This document shows, in pieces, positions 2,969-12,789 of a stretch of 64,000 nucleotides of DNA (the stretch's first letter is position 1; the number at the start of each line of letters is the position of its first letter). This DNA comes from Oceanicella sp. SM1341 (lineage in GTDB: Bacteria; Pseudomonadota; Alphaproteobacteria; Rhodobacterales; Rhodobacteraceae), in contig NZ_QRGC01000005.1 of assembly GCF_003448965.1 (NCBI RefSeq), positions 1 through 64,000 of the forward strand, in the 5' to 3' direction. A program made the position numbers and the translations under genes. The notes below the pieces were generated by a model that saw nothing but the letters and a program-made list of their open reading frames with translations, had not been told where the DNA came from and ran no database searches.

Positions 2969-3019
2969 GGTAAATGGTGCACCCGGAGCGATTCGAACGC
3001 CCGACCCCCAGATTCGTAG
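2969..3019. repeat. attL: 51-bp direct repeat, left end of the integrated element
   Basis: This 51-bp stretch is identical to 12707-12757. The match begins after G2968/T12706 and ends before G3020/T12758. It covers the 3' half of tRNA-Arg from the anticodon loop through CCA plus a few flanking bases, exactly the type of target used by tyrosine integrases. The 5' half of the tRNA is absent here. Confidence 0.95.
2973..3019 (-). pseudogene. 3' half of tRNA-Arg left at attL
   Basis: Reverse-strand bases match the anticodon stem-loop, variable region, T arm, acceptor 3' strand and CCA of the tRNA-Arg at 12713-12789. The D arm and 5' acceptor strand are missing because integration moved them to the right end. 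It cannot fold as a tRNA and is a by-product of site-specific recombination. Confidence 0.9.
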
Positions 3020-3020
3020 G

Positions 3021-3036
3021 CAGTGTGAAGTCACTG
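3021..3036. promoter_or_regulatory. Short inverted repeat next to attL
   Basis: CAGTG and CACTG flank a six-base spacer immediately inside the attL repeat. Its position suggests an integrase arm-type or accessory protein site, but no second copy was found near attR and the repeat is short. Confidence 0.25.
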
Positions 3037-3139
3037 ATATTGCAGGGAAAGGCCGGCAAACCGCCGGAAAATTTTCCCTTGCGGATCAAGGGCATATTTT
3101 TGAGCCGCAAACTGGATCGCGGCCGGACGAGAACGAAAA

Positions 3140-3167
3140 GGCCGACCCTGCGGCAACAGGATCGGCC
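3140..3167 (-). terminator. Terminator facing the left boundary of the element
   Basis: An 11-bp stem with one mismatch (GGCCGACCCTG / CAGGATCGGCC, six-base loop). Read leftwards it is followed by TTTTCGTT, giving a normal intrinsic terminator for reverse-strand transcription. It would stop leftward transcripts, for example from the XRE operon, before they cross attL into the host. Confidence 0.6.
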
Positions 3168-3233
3168 CGAAATCACACTTCGAAGCAAGCGCTCCACGCG
3201 GATTCTAATCGCTTCGCCCCTCCCCCCGCAAGC

Positions 3234-3509
3234 GTGACGCGCGTCCTCAACTTCACCCGCGCATTCAACCAGCTGACAGCCATCGAACAGGAAGCGGCTT
3301 TCACGTCGCTCCTGCGGCACTTCGAGCTGCCGGAAAATGAAGAAGTGCCGCCGTTTATGACCTCGCGCGAGACCGCGAAAACGTGGGCGGAGAGCACACC
3401 GCTGGATGAATTGAAACACGTGATGGTCGCCTGTTGGCACTGTCTGCCCTCAAGCGACCGCCGCTCTTTCCTCAAGCGCTTCGGGGGAGGACTGCGCAAT
3501 GCGTCATGA
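3234..3509 (+). CDS. Hypothetical protein at the left end of the element
   Basis: About 91 residues, starting at a GTG (3234) chosen because upstream in-frame sequence runs through the att repeat and is clearly not coding. The product is soluble, with a basic N-terminus (TRVLNFTRAFNQL) and a C-terminal CWHCLPSSDRRSF segment; I recognise no family. Its stop overlaps the start of the next gene by 11 bases, so the two are probably co-translated. The position before the packaging genes, and small size, would fit a regulator or packaging accessory protein, but that is speculation. Confidence 0.6.
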   Translation: MTRVLNFTRAFNQLTAIEQEAAFTSLLRHFELPENEEVPPFMTSRETAKTWAESTPLDELKHVMVACWHCLPSSDRRSFLKRFGGGLRNAS

Positions 3510-3768
3510 GATGTTGCAGGGGCCAGGCGGCCACTCCCTTGATGAGCTGTTGTACTACATGCGGTCTGTTGCTGGCCGGTCCGACAACGAATGGGAGCGC
3601 AACTTCGCCCGCTCCATGCTCCGGCATGGGAAGCGCACCACGTGGCACCCGTCCCCCAAGCAGGAACGCATCATGCGGAGGATGGTCTCCGAGATGCTGA
3701 CCGACGAGGACGCGAGCCTGATCGATGACGAAAGCACAGACGAAGGAGGGCGTTTCAACCACGCCTGA
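3499..3768 (+). CDS. Hypothetical small protein, second gene of the element
   Basis: 89 residues beginning at ATG 3499 inside the end of the previous gene. The product is hydrophilic with helical stretches (LDELLYYMRSVAGR; PKQERIMRRMVSEML) and an acidic C-terminus. A helical basic-then-acidic small protein just upstream of HNH and TerL could be a divergent small terminase or a DNA-binding accessory, but there is no diagnostic motif. Composition matches the host, so this gene does not look recently acquired relative to its neighbours. Confidence 0.65.
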   Translation: MRHEMLQGPGGHSLDELLYYMRSVAGRSDNEWERNFARSMLRHGKRTTWHPSPKQERIMRRMVSEMLTDEDASLIDDESTDEGGRFNHA

Positions 3769-3776
3769 CCGCGAAC

Positions 3777-3946
3777 CTGTGTCGATTGGACGGTTCAGAC
3801 GGTGGCGTTCGACACAGCACTAAGGCCTGCCACGGGGCGATCCCATAGGCCAACCGCAGCCCGAAAGCTCGAAGCGGGGGATCAGGCGCCAGACCCGGCG
3901 TCTCAAGTAGCGAGCAAGCCCGAGGCGGGGTCACACGACCTCGGGC
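3777..3946. other. Gene-free interval with two perfect stem-loops
   Basis: No convincing reading frame is present between the small gene ending at 3768 and the short ORF at 4085. A 9-bp perfect inverted repeat (CTGTGTCGA at 3777-3785 with TCGACACAG at 3809-3817, 23-base loop) and an 8-bp one (GCCCGAGG at 3918-3925 with CCTCGGGC at 3939-3946) lie here, upstream of a much longer hairpin. Location immediately before HNH and TerL makes it a candidate packaging (cos/pac) or regulatory RNA region. Confidence 0.5.
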
Positions 3947-3986
3947 GCCCAAAGCGATGGACCGGCTCCGTTGAGCAGATCTTCAC

Positions 3987-4046
3987 GCGAAGGGCTAGGG
4001 ACCAACCTGAGGATTTTCCTCGGGCTGGTCACCCTATGCCCTTCGC
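3987..4046. other. Exceptionally long 60-base hairpin upstream of HNH-TerL
   Basis: A near-continuous stem: nine bp (GCGAAGGGC 3987-3995 with GCCCTTCGC 4038-4046), five bp (TAGGG 3996-4000 with CCCTA 4032-4036), then eleven further pairs with one A-C mismatch and one wobble (4001-4012 with 4018-4029), closed by a five-base loop at 4013-4017. Only a one-base and a two-base bulge interrupt it. About 25 pairs is far beyond chance. It could be a terminator or antiterminator, a structured RNA, or a terminase recognition structure; there is no T run after it on either strand. Confidence 0.6.
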
Positions 4047-4084
4047 TCCGAACCTCACCATTGAGCAGAGAGACAGAGGACCAC

Positions 4085-4177
4085 ATGAACGAAGAAGCGC
4101 TGACGAATTGGAGGAAGCTCGGAGACATCGTGCGCGAGCTTTGCCAACGACAACCCGAGCCCCGGGGGCGTTCCTGA
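4085..4177 (+). CDS. Small ORF coupled to the HNH gene
   Basis: Thirty codons (MNEEALTNWRKLGDIV...) preceded by an AGAGG sequence seven to eight bases before the ATG. Its stop overlaps the HNH start codon by one base (TGATG), which suggests translational coupling. The sequence is a plausible amphipathic helix followed by a basic tail. It may be a real micro-protein or only a leader peptide that controls entry into the HNH gene. Confidence 0.45.
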   Translation: MNEEALTNWRKLGDIVRELCQRQPEPRGRS

Positions 4178-4524
4178 TGGCTGCATGGCCCTACAACACG
4201 AGCAAATGGGCAAAGCTCCGCAATACCAAGCTTTCAGCTAGACCTCTCTGTGAGATCTGCGAGCGGCGTGGCCTTGTCGAAGAAGCCGTTGCCGTCGATC
4301 ACTTCGTGCCCGTGCGCCAAGGTGGCAGCCCCTTCCCCTCGCTGGACGGATTGTTGTCTCTCTGCGAACGCTGCCACAACGAAAAGTCGGCGGCGTTTGA
4401 CCGGCAGGGTGGCAAGCAGTTTCGTCGCCGCTTCAAAGGCTTTGATGCTGACGGCAATCCGATTGATCCGTTCGACGTCTGGCACGCCGCGCGCCCCCGG
4501 GGGGCCTCAAAGGACGGGCGTTAG
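4177..4524 (+). CDS. HNH endonuclease (phage packaging type)
   Basis: A 115-residue protein with two zinc knuckles, CEIC near residues 25-28 and CERC near 64-67, a DH catalytic pair in AVDHFVPV and the closing CHNEK motif. This is the small HNH nuclease found beside the terminase in HK97-like phages, where it is needed with terminase for cohesive-end cutting. It begins within the preceding micro-ORF stop and lies 68 bases upstream of TerL, the usual arrangement. The N-terminal MAAWPYNTSKW segment is also characteristic (family members commonly start with a W.Y....W motif). High confidence in family; the packaging role comes from the family and from position. Confidence 0.9.
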   Translation: MAAWPYNTSKWAKLRNTKLSARPLCEICERRGLVEEAVAVDHFVPVRQGGSPFPSLDGLLSLCERCHNEKSAAFDRQGGKQFRRRFKGFDADGNPIDPFDVWHAARPRGASKDGR

Positions 4525-4592
4525 CGGCCCCCTGACCGATGACACCACTGCACGTTTACTTAATAACCAAATGAAATCAGGAGATTGAGCAC

Positions 4593-6254
4593 ATGGGACA
4601 ACGCGGCATCGGTGCAAAGCCAAAGAACCTGAGCCTCATTGAAGGAGGCGCTCCGGACCTCTTCAACCCTCAGGGACGGCCGCCCATGTCCCGCGCAATG
4701 CCGTGGGAAGCACCCGGCTTGTCGCGTGTTGATCGGGTTGTGGCCTTCCTCGAGTTCCTCCCGATCACCCAGGGCGCGCTTGCCGGCCAGAAACTCCGGG
4801 TGCGCCCGTGGCAGCGGCGCTTCCTCGAAGCCGTCTACGCCGAGGACGAGAACGGCGAGCGCACGGTGCGCACCGCGGTGCTCTCGATGCCGAGGAAGAA
4901 CGGCAAGACCCAGATCGTCGCCGGGCTGGCTCTCTGCCATCTCATGGGGCCTGAGGCGGAGCAGCGGGGCGAGGTGTATGCCGCCGCCAACGACCGCTTC
5001 CAGTCGGGCAAGACCTTCAACGAAATCGCCGCGATCCTCGACAACCTGCCCGAGCTCGACAACCGGGTGAACGTCACCAAGTTTCGCAAGGAGATCGAGG
5101 TGCTGGCCGGCGCTGGCAAGGGCTCGATCTTCGCCGCCCTCTCCGCCGATGCCGCCGGCAAGCACGGCCTCTCGCCCAGCTTCATCGTCTACGACGAGCT
5201 GGGCCAGGCGCCGAAGCGCGACCTCTACGAGGCGCTGGACACGGCAATGGGCGCACGCGATGAGCCGCTGATGACAGTCATCAGCACTCAGGCGGCCGAT
5301 GACCATGCCGTCATGTCCGAGCTGGTGGACTACGGCATGAAGGTGAACGCCGGGGAGATCGAAGACCCCGCGTTCCACCTGACCTTCTACGGCGCATCCG
5401 ACACGGACGATCCGTGGGACCCGGAGACATGGGCAAAGGCGAACCCGGCTCTTGGTGACTTCCGCAGCCGCTCCGACGTGCAGCGGCAGGCCGCCCAGGC
5501 GCAGCGGATGCCGAGCGCGGAGCACAGCTTCCGGAACCTGATCCTGAATCAGCGCGTCTCGGCCCACGTCCGGTTTCTGGCGAAGGCGGAGTGGGATGCG
5601 AACGGCGGTGAGCCGGACCTCGCCGCGCTCGCCGGCCGCCCGTGCTTCGGCGGGCTCGACCTCTCGGCCTCCCGCGACCTCACCGCCTTCGTGCTGGTGT
5701 TCCCCCAGGACGATGGAAGCTTCGACGTGGTGCCCCGCTTCTACCTGCCCGAGGCCGGCCTGCGCGACAAGTCGGAGGCCGACCGCGTGCCCTACGATGT
5801 GTGGGAGCGGCAAGGGTGGCTCACGACCATCCCCGGCGCGACGGTCGATCCGTCCTTCGTCGCCCATGACATTGCCGAGGCGGCCGCAGAGTTCGACCTT
5901 CAGGGGCTCGCCTATGACCGCTGGCGCATCGAGGATCTGAAGCGCGAGCTGAACGCCGTGGGCGCCGACCTGCCGCTGAAGGAGTTCGGCCAGGGCTTCA
6001 AGGACATGGCCCCGGCCATCGACATGCTGGAACGGCTGGTCGCCGAGGGCCGGCTGCGCCACGGCGGCAACCCGATCCTGACCATGTGCGCGGCGAATGC
6101 CGTCATTGAGAGAGACGCGGCGGGCAACCGGAAATTAGCCAAGCATAAGAGCACTGGTCGTATTGACGGAATGGTGGCATTGGCGATGGCTTTAGCTGCA
6201 GCGGGGAGGCCGGCAGAATGCGCCCTACCGGCGTGCCTTCTGGAACTCCTCTAA
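4593..6254 (+). CDS. Phage terminase large subunit (TerL)
   Basis: 553 residues. The ATPase domain has a Walker A-like loop SMPRKNGKT at 98-106 and a Walker B FIVYDE near 197-202; the C-terminal nuclease domain has the LDLSASRDLTA aspartate motif near 350 and the late GRIDGMVALA aspartate near 530. It pumps DNA into the prohead and cuts it. Two oddities: the N-terminus MGQRGIGAKPKNLSLIEG resembles the start of P27-type small terminases, and from about 6120 the DNA becomes AT-rich while still encoding the conserved nuclease end. The last 152 bases overlap, antisense, the gene at 6103-6738. ATG is preceded by AGGAG with good spacing. No separate small subunit was recognised. Confidence 0.93.
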   Translation: MGQRGIGAKPKNLSLIEGGAPDLFNPQGRPPMSRAMPWEAPGLSRVDRVVAFLEFLPITQGALAGQKLRVRPWQRRFLEAVYAEDENGERTVRTAVLSMPRKNGKTQIVAGLALCHLMGPEAEQRGEVYAAANDRFQSGKTFNEIAAILDNLPELDNRVNVTKFRKEIEVLAGAGKGSIFAALSADAAGKHGLSPSFIVYDELGQAPKRDLYEALDTAMGARDEPLMTVISTQAADDHAVMSELVDYGMKVNAGEIEDPAFHLTFYGASDTDDPWDPETWAKANPALGDFRSRSDVQRQAAQAQRMPSAEHSFRNLILNQRVSAHVRFLAKAEWDANGGEPDLAALAGRPCFGGLDLSASRDLTAFVLVFPQDDGSFDVVPRFYLPEAGLRDKSEADRVPYDVWERQGWLTTIPGATVDPSFVAHDIAEAAAEFDLQGLAYDRWRIEDLKRELNAVGADLPLKEFGQGFKDMAPAIDMLERLVAEGRLRHGGNPILTMCAANAVIERDAAGNRKLAKHKSTGRIDGMVALAMALAAAGRPAECALPACLLELL

Positions 6255-6738
6255 CAACAACGTTCGTTGGATACTTTTCATTCACAAAAGACTCAATTAA
6301 TGGCGAAATAAATACTGAAAAAACAACAATAATCATCGAAACACACGATATCCATATTGATATACGTGAAATTCTCTCAATTTGATATCTATGCTCCGCC
6401 TCTGAGAGAATTTCGCGGGCCCTCTCATAGCCGGCATCCGTGAGAAAGGTGGCCATACCTGTCTCTTCATGCGAATTCCAGTACTCAGGCCTTGTATACG
6501 AGCTCGGAAAGTGAAGCCCATGGAGTTTTATTTTCTCTACTAGTATTTCCGTGCTTCTTCTCTGAATAGCCTCCCATGTAACTAAACGCCGACGCGAATA
6601 TTCTACAAGGGTAGATTCATCAATATTATCATAATTTTCTCGTGAATATTTTAGATACGTCTTTCTCTGCTCTTCCTGAGATTTCTCAAGCTTCTCCAAG
6701 TCTGACTCAAGATGCTTAAGCTTTTCACTTCTCTTCAT
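6103..6738 (-). CDS. Coiled-coil, single-pass membrane protein; cargo gene
   Basis: 211 residues: a highly charged coiled-coil-like N-terminus (about 1-70), a middle domain, one clear membrane helix at about 126-148 (ISIWISCVSMIIVVFSVFIS), and a proline-rich C-terminus encoded antisense to the end of terL. Its ATG overlaps the stop of the XRE gene by four bases (ATGA), so the two are one operon. It is strikingly AT-rich compared with everything around it. I recognise no family. A membrane protein with a cytoplasmic coiled coil, co-expressed with a repressor in the lysogenic orientation, suggests superinfection exclusion or another phage-interference function; this is inference only. Confidence 0.75.
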   Translation of the reverse strand: MKRSEKLKHLESDLEKLEKSQEEQRKTYLKYSRENYDNIDESTLVEYSRRRLVTWEAIQRRSTEILVEKIKLHGLHFPSSYTRPEYWNSHEETGMATFLTDAGYERAREILSEAEHRYQIERISRISIWISCVSMIIVVFSVFISPLIESFVNEKYPTNVVVRGVPEGTPVGRILPASPLQLKPSPMPPFRQYDQCSYAWLISGCPPRLSQ

Positions 6739-6956
6739 TCCTTCAACCTAACTCCGATCCCTCCACCGTTTTCAGGGATGAACTCGACTCCTGCTTTTTC
6801 TAGCGTCGCGCGGAGCCTGTCGAGCGTCGATTGCTTAGCGTCGGAGCCGTTCTCGATCCGACTGATCGTGTTCGCTGTGACACCGGAAAGCTCTGCGAGA
6901 TCGCGAACGGATAGGCGCGTCGCAGCGCGGGCCATGCGAAGCTGAGCAGGCTTCAT
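6735..6956 (-). CDS. XRE-family helix-turn-helix repressor
   Basis: 73 residues from ATG 6956 (a GTG at 7013 would add 19). The core LSVRDLAELSGVTANTISRIENG is a textbook Cro/CI-type helix-turn-helix, followed by LDRLRATLEKAGVEFIPENGGG, an ending shared by many small XRE regulators. I prefer 6956 because a TATAGT -10 box on this strand (7017-7012) would put the transcript start downstream of the GTG. It is divergent from the Tat-leader gene and overlaps the downstream membrane-protein gene by four bases. Likely autoregulator and the lysogeny-type switch of this element. Confidence 0.88.
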   Translation of the reverse strand: MKPAQLRMARAATRLSVRDLAELSGVTANTISRIENGSDAKQSTLDRLRATLEKAGVEFIPENGGGIGVRLKE

Positions 6957-7019
6957 TTGTACAATGTCCAAATTTGCATTGACGTAGTCCCATTTTGGAT
7001 GGTATTTGGACACTATACC
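6957..7019. promoter_or_regulatory. Divergent promoter/operator between XRE gene and Tat-leader gene
   Basis: The gap contains nested dyads: the palindrome TTGTACAA (6957-6964), the inverted pair TGTCCAAAT (6965-6973) and ATTTGGACA (7004-7012), and GGTAT/ATACC around a nine-base centre (7001-7019). On the reverse strand a TATAGT -10 lies at 7017-7012; on the forward strand TTGACG (6979-6984) is followed after 18 bases by TATTTG. The repeated TTTGGACA half-sites are the best candidates for the XRE operator. Confidence 0.55.
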
Positions 7020-7039
7020 AATCTACAGGGACAATCACC

Positions 7040-7426
7040 ATGCTGAACATCACTCGTCGCGCCGTTCTCGGCGCGCCCGCACTCGCTCTGCCATCAGCCA
7101 TCCCCCTCACCCTCCAGGCGGCGCAGCGCAAGGATCCGCACCCTCTATATCTCGCCCGCTGGCGCGAGGCACGGGACGCTATCAATGCCCCCGGACTTGA
7201 TGAGGACAGCGTCGAGGCCGAAGCGCTCTACAGCGAGATGTGCGTTGCCGAGCAACTCATTTCCACGAGGCCGGCAGCCACTGCGAGGGGCCTTGTTGCC
7301 CAGCTCGTGTTCTTTCGGGAGTGCTTCCCAGCGTTCGTGGATTTCGGCTATGGCCCGGATTGCCATCCTCTGACCCTAGTCGCCTGCGCCGAAATGACTG
7401 CGCGACGACTGGCGGAAATGAGGTGA
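7040..7426 (+). CDS. Hypothetical protein with twin-arginine-like leader
   Basis: 128 residues. ATG 7040 was chosen because AGGGA lies about nine bases upstream and the product then opens with MLNITRRAVLGAPALALPSA, an RR-containing, hydrophobic leader with an alanine-rich end like a Tat signal peptide. The remaining part is a helical domain (YLARWREARDAIN; SVEAEALYSEMCVAEQLI) without a motif I can name. It is divergent from the XRE gene, and so may be under its control. An exported protein in such a compact element is unexpected; the RR may also be fortuitous. Confidence 0.65.
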   Translation: MLNITRRAVLGAPALALPSAIPLTLQAAQRKDPHPLYLARWREARDAINAPGLDEDSVEAEALYSEMCVAEQLISTRPAATARGLVAQLVFFRECFPAFVDFGYGPDCHPLTLVACAEMTARRLAEMR

Positions 7427-7444
7427 TCGCCCTCAGGGGCCTCC

Positions 7445-7473
7445 AATGTACCGAAATACACTTAGTGTACATT
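7445..7473. promoter_or_regulatory. Operator-like nested palindrome
   Basis: AATGTAC (7445-7451) and GTACATT (7467-7473) form a perfect inverted pair, and between them TACACTTAGTGTA (7457-7469) is itself a perfect dyad. The arrangement sits just upstream of a perfect TTGACA -35 box, where a repressor would act. The GTAC core also appears in the palindrome at 6957-6964, which hints at a shared regulator. Confidence 0.45.
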
Positions 7474-7485
7474 GCGCAATAAGGC

Positions 7486-7514
7486 TTGACAGGCACCTAT
7501 CTGAATCATATGCA
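7486..7514 (+). promoter_or_regulatory. Candidate promoter for the head-gene operon
   Basis: TTGACA at 7486-7491, a 17-base spacer and TATGCA at 7509-7514. Transcription would begin almost at ATG 7524, making that message nearly leaderless. It would drive the unknown gene and then the capsid-to-integrase run. Confidence 0.45.
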
Positions 7515-7523
7515 TTTGGCATC

Positions 7524-8105
7524 ATGAAGAGCGGACCTTTCATCCAGTGCATTGCCGACACGTACCGCGTCGAGGAGAAGACCGTGAAAACGGTCGCTCG
7601 CTTCCTTAAGGAGGCGGGGCTGCTCACCACGGGGGCACGCGGTGTCAACGCTCCTGACATGACCGCACGCGACGCGGGGCGGATGACCATCGCCTTGCTC
7701 GGCTCCGACCGTCCCGGCCGGGCGGTTGAGACGGTTTCGGCCTTCGGGGCACTGACGTGCGACCCTGAACAGTCTAATGTCCCCCAGTCGATCATCGCGC
7801 CCGACGCCGACTATTGGCCCAGTCTCGACGAGACGCTGGAAGCATACTTCTCGGCCGAGGCCAGCGGGTTGAGTGATCGCGTGGCTTCGGTGGAGCTGCG
7901 GCCGCACAACATGACGGCCGAGATCGAACTGCTTAAGGGTAACAGCGATCTCACGCCGCGCCTCGTCTTCACCCTGTCGGCCGCGACCCGCGAGGAATTG
8001 AACAGGGCCTATGAAGGGATTTCCGCCCATCAAGGTATCCGCGTGGCGCGCTCGCTCGGCGCGGGAGACCTTCTCCCGCTGATGGTCGCGATCCACGAGG
8101 CGTAG
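7524..8105 (+). CDS. Hypothetical protein upstream of the capsid gene
   Basis: 193 residues from ATG 7524. The first 50 residues (SGPFIQCIADTYRVEEKTV, then FLKEAGLLTTG) look like a winged-helix or HTH segment; the rest is a mixed domain of unknown function ending AGDLLPLMVAIHEA. An alternative ATG at 7446 has an AGGGG six bases upstream and would add 26 residues, but it would place the palindrome and promoter inside the gene. Located between the regulatory region and the head genes, it may be a late activator, a packaging factor or the missing small terminase; none is proven. Confidence 0.7.
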   Translation: MKSGPFIQCIADTYRVEEKTVKTVARFLKEAGLLTTGARGVNAPDMTARDAGRMTIALLGSDRPGRAVETVSAFGALTCDPEQSNVPQSIIAPDADYWPSLDETLEAYFSAEASGLSDRVASVELRPHNMTAEIELLKGNSDLTPRLVFTLSAATREELNRAYEGISAHQGIRVARSLGAGDLLPLMVAIHEA

Positions 8106-8197
8106 GACCCACAACATAAAACCGGCCGGGGCGGCCAATGTCGCCAAACCTCACCCGCCCCAGCCTCGACCTGCAAACCCCAAACGGAGAATCGCAG

Positions 8198-9427
8198 ATG
8201 CATTCCCTTAACACGATGCGCGAGCAGCGCGCATCAAAGGTTGCCGAAATGCGCAGCCTGAGCGAGGCGGCGCAGTCCGCCAACCGCGACCTCGACACTA
8301 GCGAGCGCACCCGCTTCGACACCCTCGAAAGCGAGGTGCGCGGCCTTTCCACTCGGATCACCGATGCCGAGAAACTGGCCGAGTTCGAGCGCCTCGAGGA
8401 GCGCGGCGAGCAGGTGAGCGGGCCGATCGGGCGCGAGCTGCGCGGCTACTCCGTCGCCAAGGCGCTCACCGAGGGCATGAACGGTCGGCTCTCGGGCCTC
8501 GAAGCCGAAATGCACCGCGAGCTGTCGCGGGACCGGAGCGAGACGCGGGGCGTCATGGTGCCCACCGAAGTGCTGTTCGAGCGCCGCGACCTCTCCACCA
8601 CCACCCCGGCCGATGGCCCCGGATCCAATCTCATCGCCACCCAGCTCGGCTCGCTGACCGACCGCCGCCGCGCCGCGCTCAAGGTGGAGAGCATGGGCGC
8701 CACGGTGCTGCGCGGGCTGACCGGCAACCTCGACCTCCCCCGGCTGACCGAGAGCGGTAGTGCCGGCTTCGTGGCCGAGCGCGCCGACGCCACCCGCAGC
8801 GACGTGAAGTTCGCCAAGGTGGGCATGACGCCGAAGACGGTGAGCGCCGAATATGCCATCTCGCGCCGGATGATGTTGCAGAGCCAGACGGCGCTTGAGC
8901 CGCTCCTGCGCGCCGATCTCGGCTACCTGCTCTCGCAGCGGCTCGACGCCGCCGCCATCATGGGAGGCGGGGCCAACGAGCCCGTCGGCATCCTCGCCGA
9001 CGCCGATGTGGCATCCCTCACCGCGGCCTCGCTCTCCTCGGACCTGACGGCCGATCTCATCGCGGCGCTGGAACTGGACGACGTGACCGGCACCACCGCG
9101 TTTCTCACCCACACTTCCGTGCTGGCCCAGGCGCGCAAGATCAAGGATGGCGACGGCCACGTCATCCCCCTCGCTGAGCTGTTCCACAACCAGCGCGTCG
9201 AGGCGTCCACGCAGGTGCCGGCGACCTCGCCCGACCCGCTTGCCTACCCGCTGATCTACGGCGAGTGGGCCAGCCTCTACGTGGGCTACTGGTCGGGCGT
9301 GGATATCCTCGTGAACCCGTACCACGCCGACGTGGCCTCCAACGGCGGCGCGCTTCTGCATGCCTTCCTCGACGCCGACGTTGTCGTTCGCCACAAGGAA
9401 GGCTTCCGCTGGGCCGAGGTGAACTGA
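8198..9427 (+). CDS. HK97-fold major capsid protein
   Basis: 409 residues from ATG 8198, which has CGGAGA seven bases upstream; a longer frame from 8138 lacks this. The N-terminal 75 residues are coiled-coil-like (MREQRASKVAEMRSLSE), the delta/scaffold domain removed by the prohead protease. The rest is typical HK97 family: LPRLTESGSAGFVAE in the P-domain region, SAEYAISRRMMLQS, a GGGANEPVGIL stretch and C-terminal LYVGYWSGVDILVNPY with VVVRHKEGFRWAEV. It forms the icosahedral head. Stop and the next start overlap (TGATG). Complete, with no sign of decay. Confidence 0.93.
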   Translation: MHSLNTMREQRASKVAEMRSLSEAAQSANRDLDTSERTRFDTLESEVRGLSTRITDAEKLAEFERLEERGEQVSGPIGRELRGYSVAKALTEGMNGRLSGLEAEMHRELSRDRSETRGVMVPTEVLFERRDLSTTTPADGPGSNLIATQLGSLTDRRRAALKVESMGATVLRGLTGNLDLPRLTESGSAGFVAERADATRSDVKFAKVGMTPKTVSAEYAISRRMMLQSQTALEPLLRADLGYLLSQRLDAAAIMGGGANEPVGILADADVASLTAASLSSDLTADLIAALELDDVTGTTAFLTHTSVLAQARKIKDGDGHVIPLAELFHNQRVEASTQVPATSPDPLAYPLIYGEWASLYVGYWSGVDILVNPYHADVASNGGALLHAFLDADVVVRHKEGFRWAEVN

Positions 9428-9699
9428 TGATCACCCTGATCGAGGCGAAGCAGTACATCCGCATGGACTTCGCTGACGATGACGCGGAAATCGCGGACAT
9501 GATCGAGGCGGCGGTGCAGCACCTCGCCTCGATCGGAGTGGACGTTACCACCGAGCCCGTTCCAGCCCCGCTCAAACAGGCGGGGTTGATGCTCGTTTCT
9601 CACTTCTACGAGGGGCGAGGGGTCATGAACGACGAAGCAAGCAGACTTTCCCCGGCATTCTTCAGGCTGATTGCTCCCTACAGGGAGATCATGCTGTGA
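9427..9699 (+). CDS. Head-tail connector protein (gp6-like)
   Basis: 90 residues; ATG 9427 overlaps the capsid stop by one base. The sequence ITLIEAKQYIRMDFADDDAEI followed by a helical IEAAVQHLASIG and a C-terminal YEGRGVMND is the classical small phage connector fold (HK97 gp6/DUF3168-neighbour type), which forms a ring under the portal that accepts the tail. For an element without tail genes this is the protein that would have to dock a helper's tail. Confidence 0.85.
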   Translation: MITLIEAKQYIRMDFADDDAEIADMIEAAVQHLASIGVDVTTEPVPAPLKQAGLMLVSHFYEGRGVMNDEASRLSPAFFRLIAPYREIML

Positions 9700-10238
9700 G
9701 CCAGGAACGCCGCTCCCTTCCCGCCGAGCTGCGTGCCAACGGCCGCCGGCTCGAAGGCTATGCTGCCGTGTTCAATAGCGAGGCGCGCATTGCTGACGCT
9801 TGGACCGAGACCATCGCACCCGGCGCCTTCGCCGGCTCGCTCACGTCCGGGCGGGACGTGCTGGCCCTTGTGGACCACGATCCGACCCGCATCCTCGGCC
9901 GCACGCGCTCGGGAAGCCTCGCGCTCAGCGAGGACAGCCGAGGGCTTGCCTTCAGGATCGACCTTCCCGACACGCAGTCCGGCCGGGACGTGCTCGCCTT
10001 GGCCGAGCGCGGTGACCTCGGCGGCATGAGCTTCGGCTTCACCGCACGAGACGAGCACCGGGACGGCGACCGCCGCGAACTTCGTGCCGTCGATCTGTTC
10101 GAAATCTCCGTTGTCGCGGCTTGGCCCGCCTATCCGGACACGCTGGTGCAGGCGCGAGGCCGCCATTGCGCGGGACCGGGGCTGTCCTACGCCGCCCGCA
10201 CCATCCGCATCATGGAGGCGATGAAATGGGGCTCCTGA
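9696..10238 (+). CDS. HK97-family prohead protease
   Basis: 180 residues from GTG 9696, overlapping the connector stop by four bases (GTGA). Motifs of the herpesvirus-like serine protease fold: LEGYAAVFNSEA at the start, FAGSL, a catalytic histidine in VDHDPTRILGR, and the serine in GDLGGMSFGF; FEISVVAAWPAYPDT closes the core. It cleaves the capsid delta domain during head maturation. The last 13 bases overlap the portal start. Found downstream of the capsid gene rather than upstream as in HK97. Confidence 0.92.
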   Translation: MSQERRSLPAELRANGRRLEGYAAVFNSEARIADAWTETIAPGAFAGSLTSGRDVLALVDHDPTRILGRTRSGSLALSEDSRGLAFRIDLPDTQSGRDVLALAERGDLGGMSFGFTARDEHRDGDRRELRAVDLFEISVVAAWPAYPDTLVQARGRHCAGPGLSYAARTIRIMEAMKWGS

Positions 10239-11425
10239 GTCGCTTTCTCGGCCGCGAGACGCGCGCCACAACCTCGCTGTCCGATCCCTACTTGGCCGAG
10301 TTCTTCGGCCAGGGCGGCGGCGCCCTCAGCTTCGTGGACCCGACCCGAGCCTCCGGCATCGCGGTGGCGCATCGGTGTGTCATGCTGATCGGTGAATTGC
10401 TCGCCGGCGTGCCGCTGCACGTCTATCGCCGGGACGAAAAGGGCGGGCGTGATCGCGCCGCCGATCACCCCACCTACCCCGTGCTGCACGACATGCCGAA
10501 CGAGATGCAGACGGCCTTCGACTTCAGGCTGGCCCTTGTGCTCGATGTGCTTCTGGCCGGCAACGCCTACGCGGAGATCATCCGCAACGGGCGCGGCCAG
10601 GTAGTCGGCCTCCGCCGGATCGATGCGGCGAGCATCTCAGTGGAGCGCCTGCGCAACGGCCGACTTCGCTACACCGAGGCCGGCGCGCCCGCGAAGGTGT
10701 TCCTGCAGGATGAGATACTGCACATCCGCTACCGCCTCGCTCGCGACGGGGTTATGGGACTGTCCCCGATCCAGATCGGGAGGGAGACCTTCAATCTCGC
10801 ACTCACCCAGGGCGACACGGCCGCCAAGCAGGCCGCGAAGGGCTTCCGGCCGGAGGGCGCCGTGGTGTTCGCGCAGTCGATCAATCCGACACAGAAGGTG
10901 GAGGTTCTGGACAAGCTGCGCCAGAAGATCGAGCGGAACGACAGCACCAGCGGCATCATGGTTCTGGACGGCGGCGCCGATTGGAAGCCCTTCGCCTTCA
11001 GCTCGAAGGATGCGGAGTTCCTCGAAAGCCGGAAGCTGACGGCCCTCGATATCTGCCGCGTCTATGGAGTTCCGCCGAGCGCGGCCGGCATCACCGATAA
11101 CGCGACCTACAGCAACATCGGAGAGGAGAGCCGGGCTCTCGTGCAGCGGTGCCTCGCGCCGATGGCGAAGCGGATCGAGCAGGCCATGAACATGGCCCTC
11201 CTCACCGCCGAGAGCCGCAAGGTGTTCTTCGTGGAGCACGATCTTGCCGGCTTGCTCCGTGGTGACCTCGCAGCCCGCTACAGCGCCTACCGCGTCGGCC
11301 GGGATGGGGGATGGCTTTCCGCGAACGAAATCCGGAGGATGGAGAACCTCCCCGAGATCGATGGTGGCGACGAGTTCCTGTCGCCCCTCAATATGCAGGC
11401 CGTCGGCCAGGTGGAGGGCGAGTGA
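10226..11425 (+). CDS. HK97-family phage portal protein
   Basis: 399 residues from ATG 10226, inside the end of the protease gene. Family motifs: VAHRCVMLIGELLAGVPLHVYRR near 50-70, LLAGNAYAEIIRNGRG, RLARDGVMGLSPIQIG, then KLTALDICRVYGVPPSAAG and the YSNIGEESRALVQRC stem region; it ends with GGDEFLSPLNMQ, as many siphophage portals do. The dodecameric portal is the DNA entry channel at the head vertex. Full length for the family. Its stop overlaps the next start (TGATG). Confidence 0.93.
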   Translation: MGLLSRFLGRETRATTSLSDPYLAEFFGQGGGALSFVDPTRASGIAVAHRCVMLIGELLAGVPLHVYRRDEKGGRDRAADHPTYPVLHDMPNEMQTAFDFRLALVLDVLLAGNAYAEIIRNGRGQVVGLRRIDAASISVERLRNGRLRYTEAGAPAKVFLQDEILHIRYRLARDGVMGLSPIQIGRETFNLALTQGDTAAKQAAKGFRPEGAVVFAQSINPTQKVEVLDKLRQKIERNDSTSGIMVLDGGADWKPFAFSSKDAEFLESRKLTALDICRVYGVPPSAAGITDNATYSNIGEESRALVQRCLAPMAKRIEQAMNMALLTAESRKVFFVEHDLAGLLRGDLAARYSAYRVGRDGGWLSANEIRRMENLPEIDGGDEFLSPLNMQAVGQVEGE

Positions 11426-11613
11426 TGGCGAAGGCCCATTTCACCCAAGCCGATATCAAGCGCGCCCTCAAGGTTGCCCACGACGTGGGGCTTAACGTCG
11501 CCGGATACCGCATCGAGCCGGATGGAAGCATTCAAGTCATGACGGCGGAAGCTGCCGAAAGTGCGGCAGATCGCGCCTTGGCCGTCTGGGAGAAGTCGAA
11601 TGCCCCGCGCTAA
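11425..11613 (+). CDS. Small protein between portal and integrase
   Basis: 62 residues (FTQADIKRALKVAHDVGLNVAGYRIEP...). The pattern, an N-terminal helix, then a beta-rich VAGYRIEPDGSIQV and a low-complexity tail, is one I associate with small genes just upstream of alphaproteobacterial phage and island integrases, of unproven function. ATG overlaps the portal stop, and its end overlaps the integrase start by 14 bases. A role in recombination directionality is possible but no excisionase-type winged helix is evident. Confidence 0.75.
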   Translation: MAKAHFTQADIKRALKVAHDVGLNVAGYRIEPDGSIQVMTAEAAESAADRALAVWEKSNAPR

Positions 11614-12697
11614 GCTGAAGGGCGTCAACACGGTGAAGAAGCGGCTCTCGGATGGCACCGTGCGCCGCTACTACTACCATCGAGCCTCCGGCACCCCCCT
11701 GCCCTCGGACCCGAATTCCCGCGAGTTCCTGCTCGCCTACGCCGAGGCGGAGAAGGCGCGGCCGAAGGATGCAGGCACCATCGCAGCCCTGATCCGCAGC
11801 TACTCGCTGAGCCTCAAGTTCGAGCGGCTGGCGACGAGCACCCAGAAGGAATACCGCCGCATCCTGACGAAGCTGGAAGATCGCTTCGGCACGATGCCGA
11901 TTGCCGCCCTCGCGTCACCCAAGGTGCGCCGGATCTTCCTCGACTATCACGAGGAGATCGGCAGAGAGCACCCGCGCGAGGCCGACAATCGGATGACCCT
12001 GCTCCAGGTCGTCTTCAACTACGCAATCTCCCGGGGCGAGCTGCGCGACAACCCGATTGTGGGCTTGGAGCGCCTTCACCGGGCCGACCGGGCCGAATTC
12101 GTCTGGACCGAGCGGGACGTGACCGGCTTCATGAAGGACGCGCCCGCAGAGCTGCAACAGGCGCTGGTGCTCGCCATCTGCACCGGCCAGCGCTACGGCG
12201 ACCTGATCCGCCTCCGCTGGGCCGACTATGACGGCAACGCCATCACCCTGCGCCAGCGCAAGACGGGCGCCCGCGTCAATGTGCGCTGCCTGCCCACGCT
12301 GCGCGCCATGCTCGACGGCATGCCGAAGCGCGGCCCCTTCATCCTCACCCGGCCTGATGGCCGCCCGTGGTTCACCGAGAAGAACGACAAAGCGCTTTCG
12401 AAGGCATGGCGCGAGCACGCCCGCGCGGCGGGAATCACCGAGCTGCATTTTCATGACCTGCGCGGCACGGCGGTGACCACGATGAACGAAGCCGGCCTCA
12501 CGCCGCAGCAGATTGCTTCGGTGACCGGCCACACCTTCAAGTCGGTGCTCACGATCCTTGAACGCTACAGCGCGAGGACGCAGCGGCTCAGTGATGCGGC
12601 GATGCTGGCTTGGGAGAACGCTCAGGCAACGGGTTTTGCAAACCCGTTGCAAACCACCCCCCTGACCGCCGAGGCGGTCTGGAAAAAAGAGGAGTGA
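11600..12697 (+). CDS. Tyrosine-recombinase integrase
   Basis: 365 residues from ATG 11600. The N-terminal arm-binding part (KRLSDGTVRRYYYHR) precedes a SAM-like core-binding domain (about 60-160) and the catalytic domain with R198 (CTGQRYGDL), K221, H285 and R288 (HDLRG), H311 (GHTFKS) and the nucleophile Y323 (LERYSAR). It recombines attP with the tRNA-Arg site. It ends ten bases before attR, the usual position of int beside its tRNA target. It has no promoter of its own that I can see and overlaps the preceding gene, so it appears to be the last gene of the head operon, which is unusual. Confidence 0.95.
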   Translation: MPRAKLKGVNTVKKRLSDGTVRRYYYHRASGTPLPSDPNSREFLLAYAEAEKARPKDAGTIAALIRSYSLSLKFERLATSTQKEYRRILTKLEDRFGTMPIAALASPKVRRIFLDYHEEIGREHPREADNRMTLLQVVFNYAISRGELRDNPIVGLERLHRADRAEFVWTERDVTGFMKDAPAELQQALVLAICTGQRYGDLIRLRWADYDGNAITLRQRKTGARVNVRCLPTLRAMLDGMPKRGPFILTRPDGRPWFTEKNDKALSKAWREHARAAGITELHFHDLRGTAVTTMNEAGLTPQQIASVTGHTFKSVLTILERYSARTQRLSDAAMLAWENAQATGFANPLQTTPLTAEAVWKKEE

Positions 12698-12706
12698 TTG
12701 CAAGGT

Positions 12707-12757
12707 GGTAAATGGTGCACCCGGAGCGATTCGAACGCCCGACCCCCAGATTCGTAG
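12707..12757. repeat. attR: 51-bp direct repeat within tRNA-Arg
   Basis: Identical to 2969-3019. It supplies the anticodon-loop-to-CCA half of the tRNA, so insertion leaves the gene functional. The crossover must lie somewhere inside the 51 bp, which most likely means the anticodon loop region. Confidence 0.95.
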
Positions 12758-12789
12758 TCTGGTGCTCTATCCAGCTGAGCTACGGGTGC
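12713..12789 (-). tRNA. tRNA-Arg (anticodon ACG)
   Basis: Folds fully: acceptor GCACCCG/CGGGTGC with discriminator A and encoded CCA, D arm GCTC/GAGC, anticodon stem CCAGA/TCTGG with loop CTACGAA, T arm GGGCG/CGCTC with loop TTCGAAT. ACG, converted to ICG by TadA, decodes CGU, CGC and CGA, which makes it an essential tRNA. The 3' half comes from the integrated element. The gene starts eleven bases after the histidine kinase stop, in the same direction. Confidence 0.97.

Follow-up and report, generated by a model that had tools for sequence, protein, structure and literature searches.

Capsid-forming phage-inducible chromosomal islands (cf-PICIs) are reported to encode capsid, protease, portal, connectors, both terminase subunits and an HNH protein and to be widely distributed (PMC10690885); their average size is given as 14 kb (PMC10803314), and their capsids are described as forming three distinct clades (PMC11389934). 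Here we describe an element of ~9.7 kb in the alphaproteobacterium Oceanicella sp. SM1341, found in a 64,000-nucleotide stretch of DNA that is referred to here as the window (positions 1 to 64,000 of contig NZ_QRGC01000005.1, assembly GCF_003448965.1). Like cf-PICIs, the element has its own capsid, protease, portal, connector, large terminase subunit (TerL) and HNH genes and no recognised tail or lysis genes between its att repeats; some of its rhizobial relatives are alike as well, with a left-end integrase, AlpA and a replication-like gene. An AlpA-type regulator is expected in PICIs, and the element differs in having neither this nor a recognised separate small terminase subunit (TerS) nor a primase. 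Since all three were sought and not found among the 14 open reading frames (ORFs) of the window that we scanned against Pfam and PHROGs, we do not file the element as a cf-PICI; it is set apart by description, not by capsid kinship, and is reported as one that would work like a cf-PICI, yet as a variant of that kind.

Other described systems are similar in part. The Streptomyces phage satellites MulchRoom and MiniFlayer also have their own capsid and packaging genes and, as summarised, no obvious replicase (PMC10690885); they are described with other hosts, virulent helpers and direct terminal repeats, whereas the element has tRNA att repeats and HK97-type genes. The phage-inducible chromosomal minimalist islands (PICMI) of Vibrio share with it a very small gene set and a small gene beside or overlapping the integrase (PMC10803314). 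In Vibrio PICMI the gene iolg is reported to be required for excision (PMC10803314), and the overlap of a small ORF (unk5) with the element's integrase resembles the placement of iolg. PICMI115, unlike the element, has AlpA and a primase among six genes, none of them described in that account as a capsid gene (PMC10803314). With HK97-type tailed phages the element has in common a TerL 46% identical to the HK97 group, an HK97-fold capsid, an S78 protease and a gp6 connector; however, the HK97 order is TerS-TerL-portal-protease-capsid followed by tails, whereas that of the element is TerL-capsid-connector-protease-portal without tails, and a complete HK97-like prophage has a tail module between its att sites, which the element does not. 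Gene transfer agents (GTAs) are not known to have an integrase or att, both of which are present here, and the element's portal stands apart from four GTA portals. Among the titles and abstract openings listed by our literature searches, we found no description of capsid-forming satellites in Alphaproteobacteria, of which there may be an earlier notice, or of satellites or prophages in GTA genes.

We found that the element is very probably a functional-looking minimal capsid-forming phage satellite, which would make and fill its own small head and borrow tails and lysis; the use of a helper and the particles are what we infer. It is integrated at the 3' end of tRNA-Arg(ACG) and has an intact head and packaging set, with no recognised tail or lysis genes. 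Two direct repeats bound it, attL (2969..3019), a copy of the 3' part of tRNA-Arg, and attR (12707..12757), within the tRNA gene, neither assigned to a strand; a repeat comparison showed 51/51 bp identity between them and a start-to-start distance of 9,738 bp (~2e-21 such identical 51-bp pairs are expected by chance in 12 kb of the same composition). Because the right repeat overlaps the 3' part of the integration target, tRNA-Arg(ACG) (12713..12789, minus strand), an intact tRNA remains next to the integrase. The GC content is 0.72-0.75 to the left of the element, mostly 0.66-0.73 to the right and 0.60-0.69 in most of the element, with one stretch near 0.50 at 6.0-7.0 kb, within the element. 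The host genome (113 contigs, 5.74 Mb) holds a single copy, with two short weak matches elsewhere. In the one congener compared (G1072), both flanks align at ~82-84% and the tRNA contains a single att copy (52 identical bp), and in place of a satellite the flanks enclose 5.7 kb of unrelated sequence, so that the locus is variable, yet offers no clean empty site. This unrelated DNA beside the same tRNA (L218:10200-15885) includes genes that we take to be IS21-like.

The integrase and every head and packaging gene are open frames with Pfam and PHROGs matches, all on the plus strand: an HNH endonuclease, packaging-type by position (4177..4524; PF01844 5e-8, phrog_2323 3e-23; the start at 4177 was chosen in this analysis, and the ORF itself opens at 3802); TerL, with ATPase and nuclease domains (4593..6254; PF03354, PF20441, phrog_9 6e-143); an HK97-fold major capsid protein (8198..9427; PF05065 7e-23, phrog_617 5e-53); a gp6-like head-tail connector (Ad1; 9427..9699; PF05135, phrog_40); an S78 prohead protease (9696..10238; PF04586 8e-43); a portal protein (10226..11425; PF04860 2e-94); and a tyrosine integrase (11600..12697; PF00589 2e-13, phrog_1 1e-39). 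Their motifs are in place (Walker A/B-like and nuclease Asp in TerL, the HNH motifs, and R-HxxR-H-Y in the integrase). No tail, lysis or replication family was matched among the 14 ORFs. The preliminary description of this DNA had reported perfect 51-bp att repeats in tRNA-Arg, an intact integrase with intact head and packaging genes, and no tail, lysis or recognisable replication genes, and our analysis agrees with it on each of these.

We reasoned that helper infection or induction would relieve the repression exerted by a divergent XRE-type helix-turn-helix regulator, a candidate repressor (6735..7013, minus strand; PF13560 8e-10). Excision by many tyrosine integrases depends on an additional factor, and here the integrase would excise the element together with a small accessory protein, for which unk5 (62 aa; 11425..11613, plus strand), overlapping the integrase start, is a candidate by position only. 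The excised element would be replicated by helper or host functions. HNH proteins together with HK97-type TerL package cos DNA, and protease, portal and connector are required by HK97-fold heads; here HNH and TerL would package the element into its own small head, its connector would join this head to a helper tail, and helper lysis would release the particle. Judging from genome length, the head would be of about triangulation number 3 (T=3), an architecture that has been modelled for tailed capsids at 11.8 kb (8.1-17.1) and counted among missing ones (PMC7762592); such satellites would be candidates for finding it. Alternatively, multimers may be packaged in a larger head.

Relatives of the element are numerous. 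The window portal as sole query gave 18 IMG/VR loci, while an alignment (A1) gave 54 loci in GTDB genomes and 141 relatives in IMG/VR, 80 of which were retained; these A1 scans were built on portal motifs and are therefore biased toward this lineage. All GTDB titles that name a taxon below Proteobacteria are alphaproteobacterial (Rhodobacterales, Hyphomicrobiales, Caulobacterales and others). Note that genome and IMG/VR loci overlap (for example L034 and the window, L036 and L052, L037 and L054, L039 and L097), so that locus counts are not counts of independent elements, and that purpose-written scripts supplied the gene calls and family labels for relatives. The synteny comparison suggested in the preliminary description gave a uniform answer: TerL-capsid-protease-portal is the order in 100/100 loci that have all four genes above length thresholds (overlapping loci included; an integrase was required in genome loci, not in IMG/VR loci). 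Among 109 loci with TerL, capsid and portal, many of them on cut contigs, HNH was labelled in 87, a connector in 93 and an integrase in 69. Direct repeats anchored in a tRNA (14-58 bp, those of 14-16 bp being less certain) were present in 29/143 loci, in ten tRNA isotypes, at a spacing of 9,310-11,527 bp (median 10,466). L096, whose integrase is the closest to that of the window (50%), shares the tRNA-Arg(ACG) target, and its repeat is likewise 51 bp long. By sequence, then, the element belongs to a widespread alphaproteobacterial lineage of fixed gene order and narrow size; head-making satellites in Alphaproteobacteria would form one such lineage.

A search less tied to portal motifs, in 292 genomes of the host's order, gave matches of 49-75% in four genomes (G003, G004, G180 and G234) and, the window's own copy set aside, next matches of at most 37% among the matches listed. 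G003 holds a satellite of the same type; its integrase lies at the left end, and it has an HTH_17 protein. The copy in G004 (L120) is broken, with a transposase gene (PF00665) among pieces of the packaging genes, and G180 holds satellite fragments (L101/L121).

In a portal tree of 97 rows (quick search; Shimodaira-Hasegawa-like approximate likelihood ratio test), 63/64 satellite portals clustered together (97% support), and the 27 prophage, 2 phage and 4 GTA rows lay outside this cluster. The label 'satellite' denotes a portal at least 38% identical to that of the window (64/106 retained at 85% identity); because identity defined the label, what the tree shows is a single lineage, which is not proof that no tailed phage falls inside it. 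L049 bears the label, yet lies outside the clade; phage L200 yielded no row, and 26 of the prophage portals come from stretches of ~3-4 kb classed without tail inspection. Searches of 50,697 phage records with TerL, portal and capsid, also suggested earlier, returned remote matches, the best from isolated phages among the matches listed being ~46%, 36% and 27-32% identical, respectively.

The host genome itself holds two possible tail sources for the element. Its GTA cluster (L117) has a TerL of 459 aa with both Terminase_6 domains, a portal (PF04860) and a tail tube protein (PF06199), the protease, capsid and further ORFs being assigned by similarity or place. A prophage module on contig C59 (L118, 17.7 kb), cut by the contig ends, has TerS (PF05119), TerL, portal and capsid as well as tail genes, namely a minor tail protein of 1,093 aa (PF10145) and a Phage-tail_3 protein.

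To our surprise, five relatives interrupt the GTA large-terminase gene: L097 (also L039) in Pararhizobium mangrovi, L060 in Chelativorans intermedius, L064 (also L143) in Bosea vaviloviae, L190 on a metagenomic contig and L061 in a metagenome-assembled genome of Hyphomicrobiales. The integrases of L097, L060, L061 and L064 are mutually 79-94% identical and at most ~56% identical to others compared, and a survey of 397 genomes of that order found such an integrase at >58% identity solely in the genome that carries L097; with one holder, this GTA-terminase branch is rare. A search for the GTA-site integrase across 385 genomes of the class, none of them a known carrier, gave no hit at E <= 1e-60. 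An 8-bp core, ATGTGCGA, stands at both junctions in L097 (2739 and 12923), L060 (3011 and 12929), L064 (2284 and 12942) and L061 (1770 and 12034, the right side near the contig end), and at 2647 in L190, which shows the right side only. The left part of the terminase ends in Met-Cys-Glu-Phe and the right part (41-42 residues) begins with Met-Cys-Asp-Phe; when the flanks of L097, L060 and L064 are joined at the core, the terminase reading frame is uninterrupted again. With the element in place, the nuclease-domain match in L097 ends at profile position 131/155, whereas in the window genome's GTA terminase it extends to 153, and this truncated domain suggests that the insertion would silence GTA packaging. 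GTA ORFs from the portal onward persist downstream in L097, L060 and L064. The GTA portal of L097 (13231-14154) has 307 aa, versus 391-393 in L060/L064, with a matching C-terminus; in L064, two reversed ORFs follow the GTA capsid. Because of this short portal and these reversed ORFs, the GTAs concerned may not all work. The same GTA-terminase core is also found at L127:5206 (G752), where a different-looking mobile element lies at a contig end beside a 58% integrase.

These insertions bring up the alternative that survives best, a capsid-forming satellite that would take its tails from the host GTA and not from a phage. It would be in keeping with the five insertions, the truncated nuclease domain of L097, the downstream GTA ORFs kept in L097, L060 and L064 and the GTA cluster of the window genome itself. 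However, the window element sits in a tRNA; the insertions may mirror a conserved att site only, because the apparently different element of G752 shares the core; and the GTA of L097 may be decayed, its portal being ~85 residues shorter. On balance we regard a GTA donor for the window element as distinctly unlikely. Somewhat less doubtful, though still improbable, is a broader entanglement of the lineage with GTAs, in which the branch in the GTA terminase would turn off GTA packaging, leave the tail genes and restore the gene on excision, satellite heads would mount on the tails of GTAs (or of GTA-like prophages), and the T=3 (or smaller) HK97-fold architecture, so far unobserved, would exist naturally in these heads; the use of GTA tails is, in particular, speculation. 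Whether satellites regulate GTAs or exploit them can be tested genetically, and directly, through the GTA-terminase insertions.

We then weighed the satellite reading against that of an inert deletion remnant, a tailed prophage that would have lost its tail, lysis and replication genes. The element has no replication, lysis or separate TerS gene, as a remnant might, and degraded relatives such as L120 and L101/L121 are known. On the contrary, the tail-less architecture recurs at similar size across several alphaproteobacterial families, the att repeats are perfect, and the proteins of isolated phages are remote. The preliminary description had named close relatives with tail and lysis genes between the same att sites as the mark of a remnant; we looked for these, and since the relatives retain the tail-less architecture, that mark is absent. 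There are also signs of purifying selection on the head-building and packaging genes. Comparing the window with L035, L052, L054 and L053, the ratio of nonsynonymous to synonymous substitution rates (dN/dS) was 0.10-0.36 for HNH, TerL, capsid, protease and portal and 0.26-0.44 for the connector, with 0.33-0.85 or saturated values for the regulator and the small unknown genes; dS is high (~0.8-2.7, partly saturated), so that these estimates are rough. Given the conserved tail-less relatives and the dN/dS values, we rejected the remnant as the main reading and consider it very unlikely. The least probable alternative is a domesticated, GTA-like or autonomous maker of tail-less heads, which would package DNA and need no helper tail: the head and packaging set looks complete, the same genome has a GTA cluster and helper dependence is something we infer, but in the tree the portal is distant from four GTA portals, the integrase, the att repeats and absence from the congener give the element a mobile look, its connector suggests the joining of a tail, and no lysis gene is recognised in it.

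Besides the roughness of the selection estimates, several findings weigh against a functional satellite. At least one of five genes is missing at the length thresholds in 22/54 genome loci, some broken and some contig-cut, and decay is therefore common. No family of a separate TerS was matched among the 14 window ORFs; the sole TerS-named match is that of the HNH protein to phrog_4581 (1e-8), alongside stronger HNH families. We can only guess that unk4 (193 aa, no family; 7524..8105, plus strand), whose predicted structure has a confident N-terminal helical part (mean pLDDT, the predicted local distance difference test, 69; ~86-97 over the first 70 residues in blocks of ten), might be a DNA-binding protein or a substitute for TerS, and a Foldseek search with this model gave nothing at E <= 0.001. 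Nor did Pfam or PHROGs match a primase or replication gene among the window ORFs, so that multiplication would depend entirely on others. Of the head-closure, gp10-like and tail-terminator proteins that HK97 has, none was recognised in the element, which has a gp6-type connector only. Finally, a subgroup of relatives (L083, L195 and L196) has a lone tail-tube protein between TerL and capsid (L083:7290-7733).

Window ORFs gave no Pfam or PHROGs match to an AlpA-type regulator either. In the preliminary description, this lack and that of a primase or replication module marked a minimal capsid-forming satellite as a possibly separate lineage. The satellite and its lineage stand, as far as sequence goes (an own capsid, a presumably borrowed tail and an own portal clade), but the supposed marks do not: relatives carry PF05930, AAA_25/Toprim and HTH_36 initiator-like genes, and L035, the window's nearest portal relative, has an AAA_25 gene. 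Among 83 loci with >2 kb upstream of TerL, a replication-like gene was labelled in 66 and an AlpA-family gene in 22 (PF05930 confirmed in L042, L162 and L083). Ten of these 66 labels rest on family F18, for which L064 gives only an HTH_36 match below threshold and L097 gives no match; the other 56 are better supported. The AlpA and replication losses are thus, to judge from these labels, not lineage-wide.

We scanned accessory proteins of relatives as 101 cluster representatives (90-449 aa, from 343 proteins) plus four window ORFs, 105 in all, leaving out core genes, integrases, presumed flanking genes and proteins of at least 450 aa; those of the last class that were seen are replication-like. 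Pfam searches with representative proteins from the relatives' loci gave AAA_25, Toprim, HTH_36, AlpA, left-end integrase domains and a head-completion protein, and PHROGs matches in the accessory set included replication initiation families. Among the first 25 of 51 PHROGs families and all 19 Pfam families, the tail families were two PHROGs major tail proteins and PF06199, one protein each, and rarer PHROGs matches may lie among the other families; the protein matching PF06199 comes from L083 and has relatives in L195 and L196.

Apart from the XRE regulator and a low-GC accessory ORF, the element has five small ORFs without a family (unk1-unk5). Similar proteins to unk1 (91 aa; 3234..3509, plus strand) are found in L035, L037/L054, L053 and L141. 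The product of unk2 (89 aa; 3499..3768, plus strand) is a small helical protein, predicted as three helices, with a lone Pfam match far below cut-off; it occurs in loci without a labelled replication gene (11/17, window included, versus 0/66 with one; 14 sequences in total). The scan gave no family for unk3 (128 aa; 7040..7426, plus strand). The accessory ORF (211 aa, no family; 6103..6738, minus strand) lies in the 50% GC stretch and overlaps the TerL 3' end. Together with the regulator gene it occupies the slot between TerL and capsid (window 6103-7013), which is of low GC in the window and variable among relatives; a Pfam match in this slot is YfbU (L160), and accessory proteins of relatives, not assigned to a slot, also match HSDR_N and PrtN. 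A PADLOC defence scan of the accessory set matched ten families, each in 1-2/105 proteins, with a best E of 1.6e-8.

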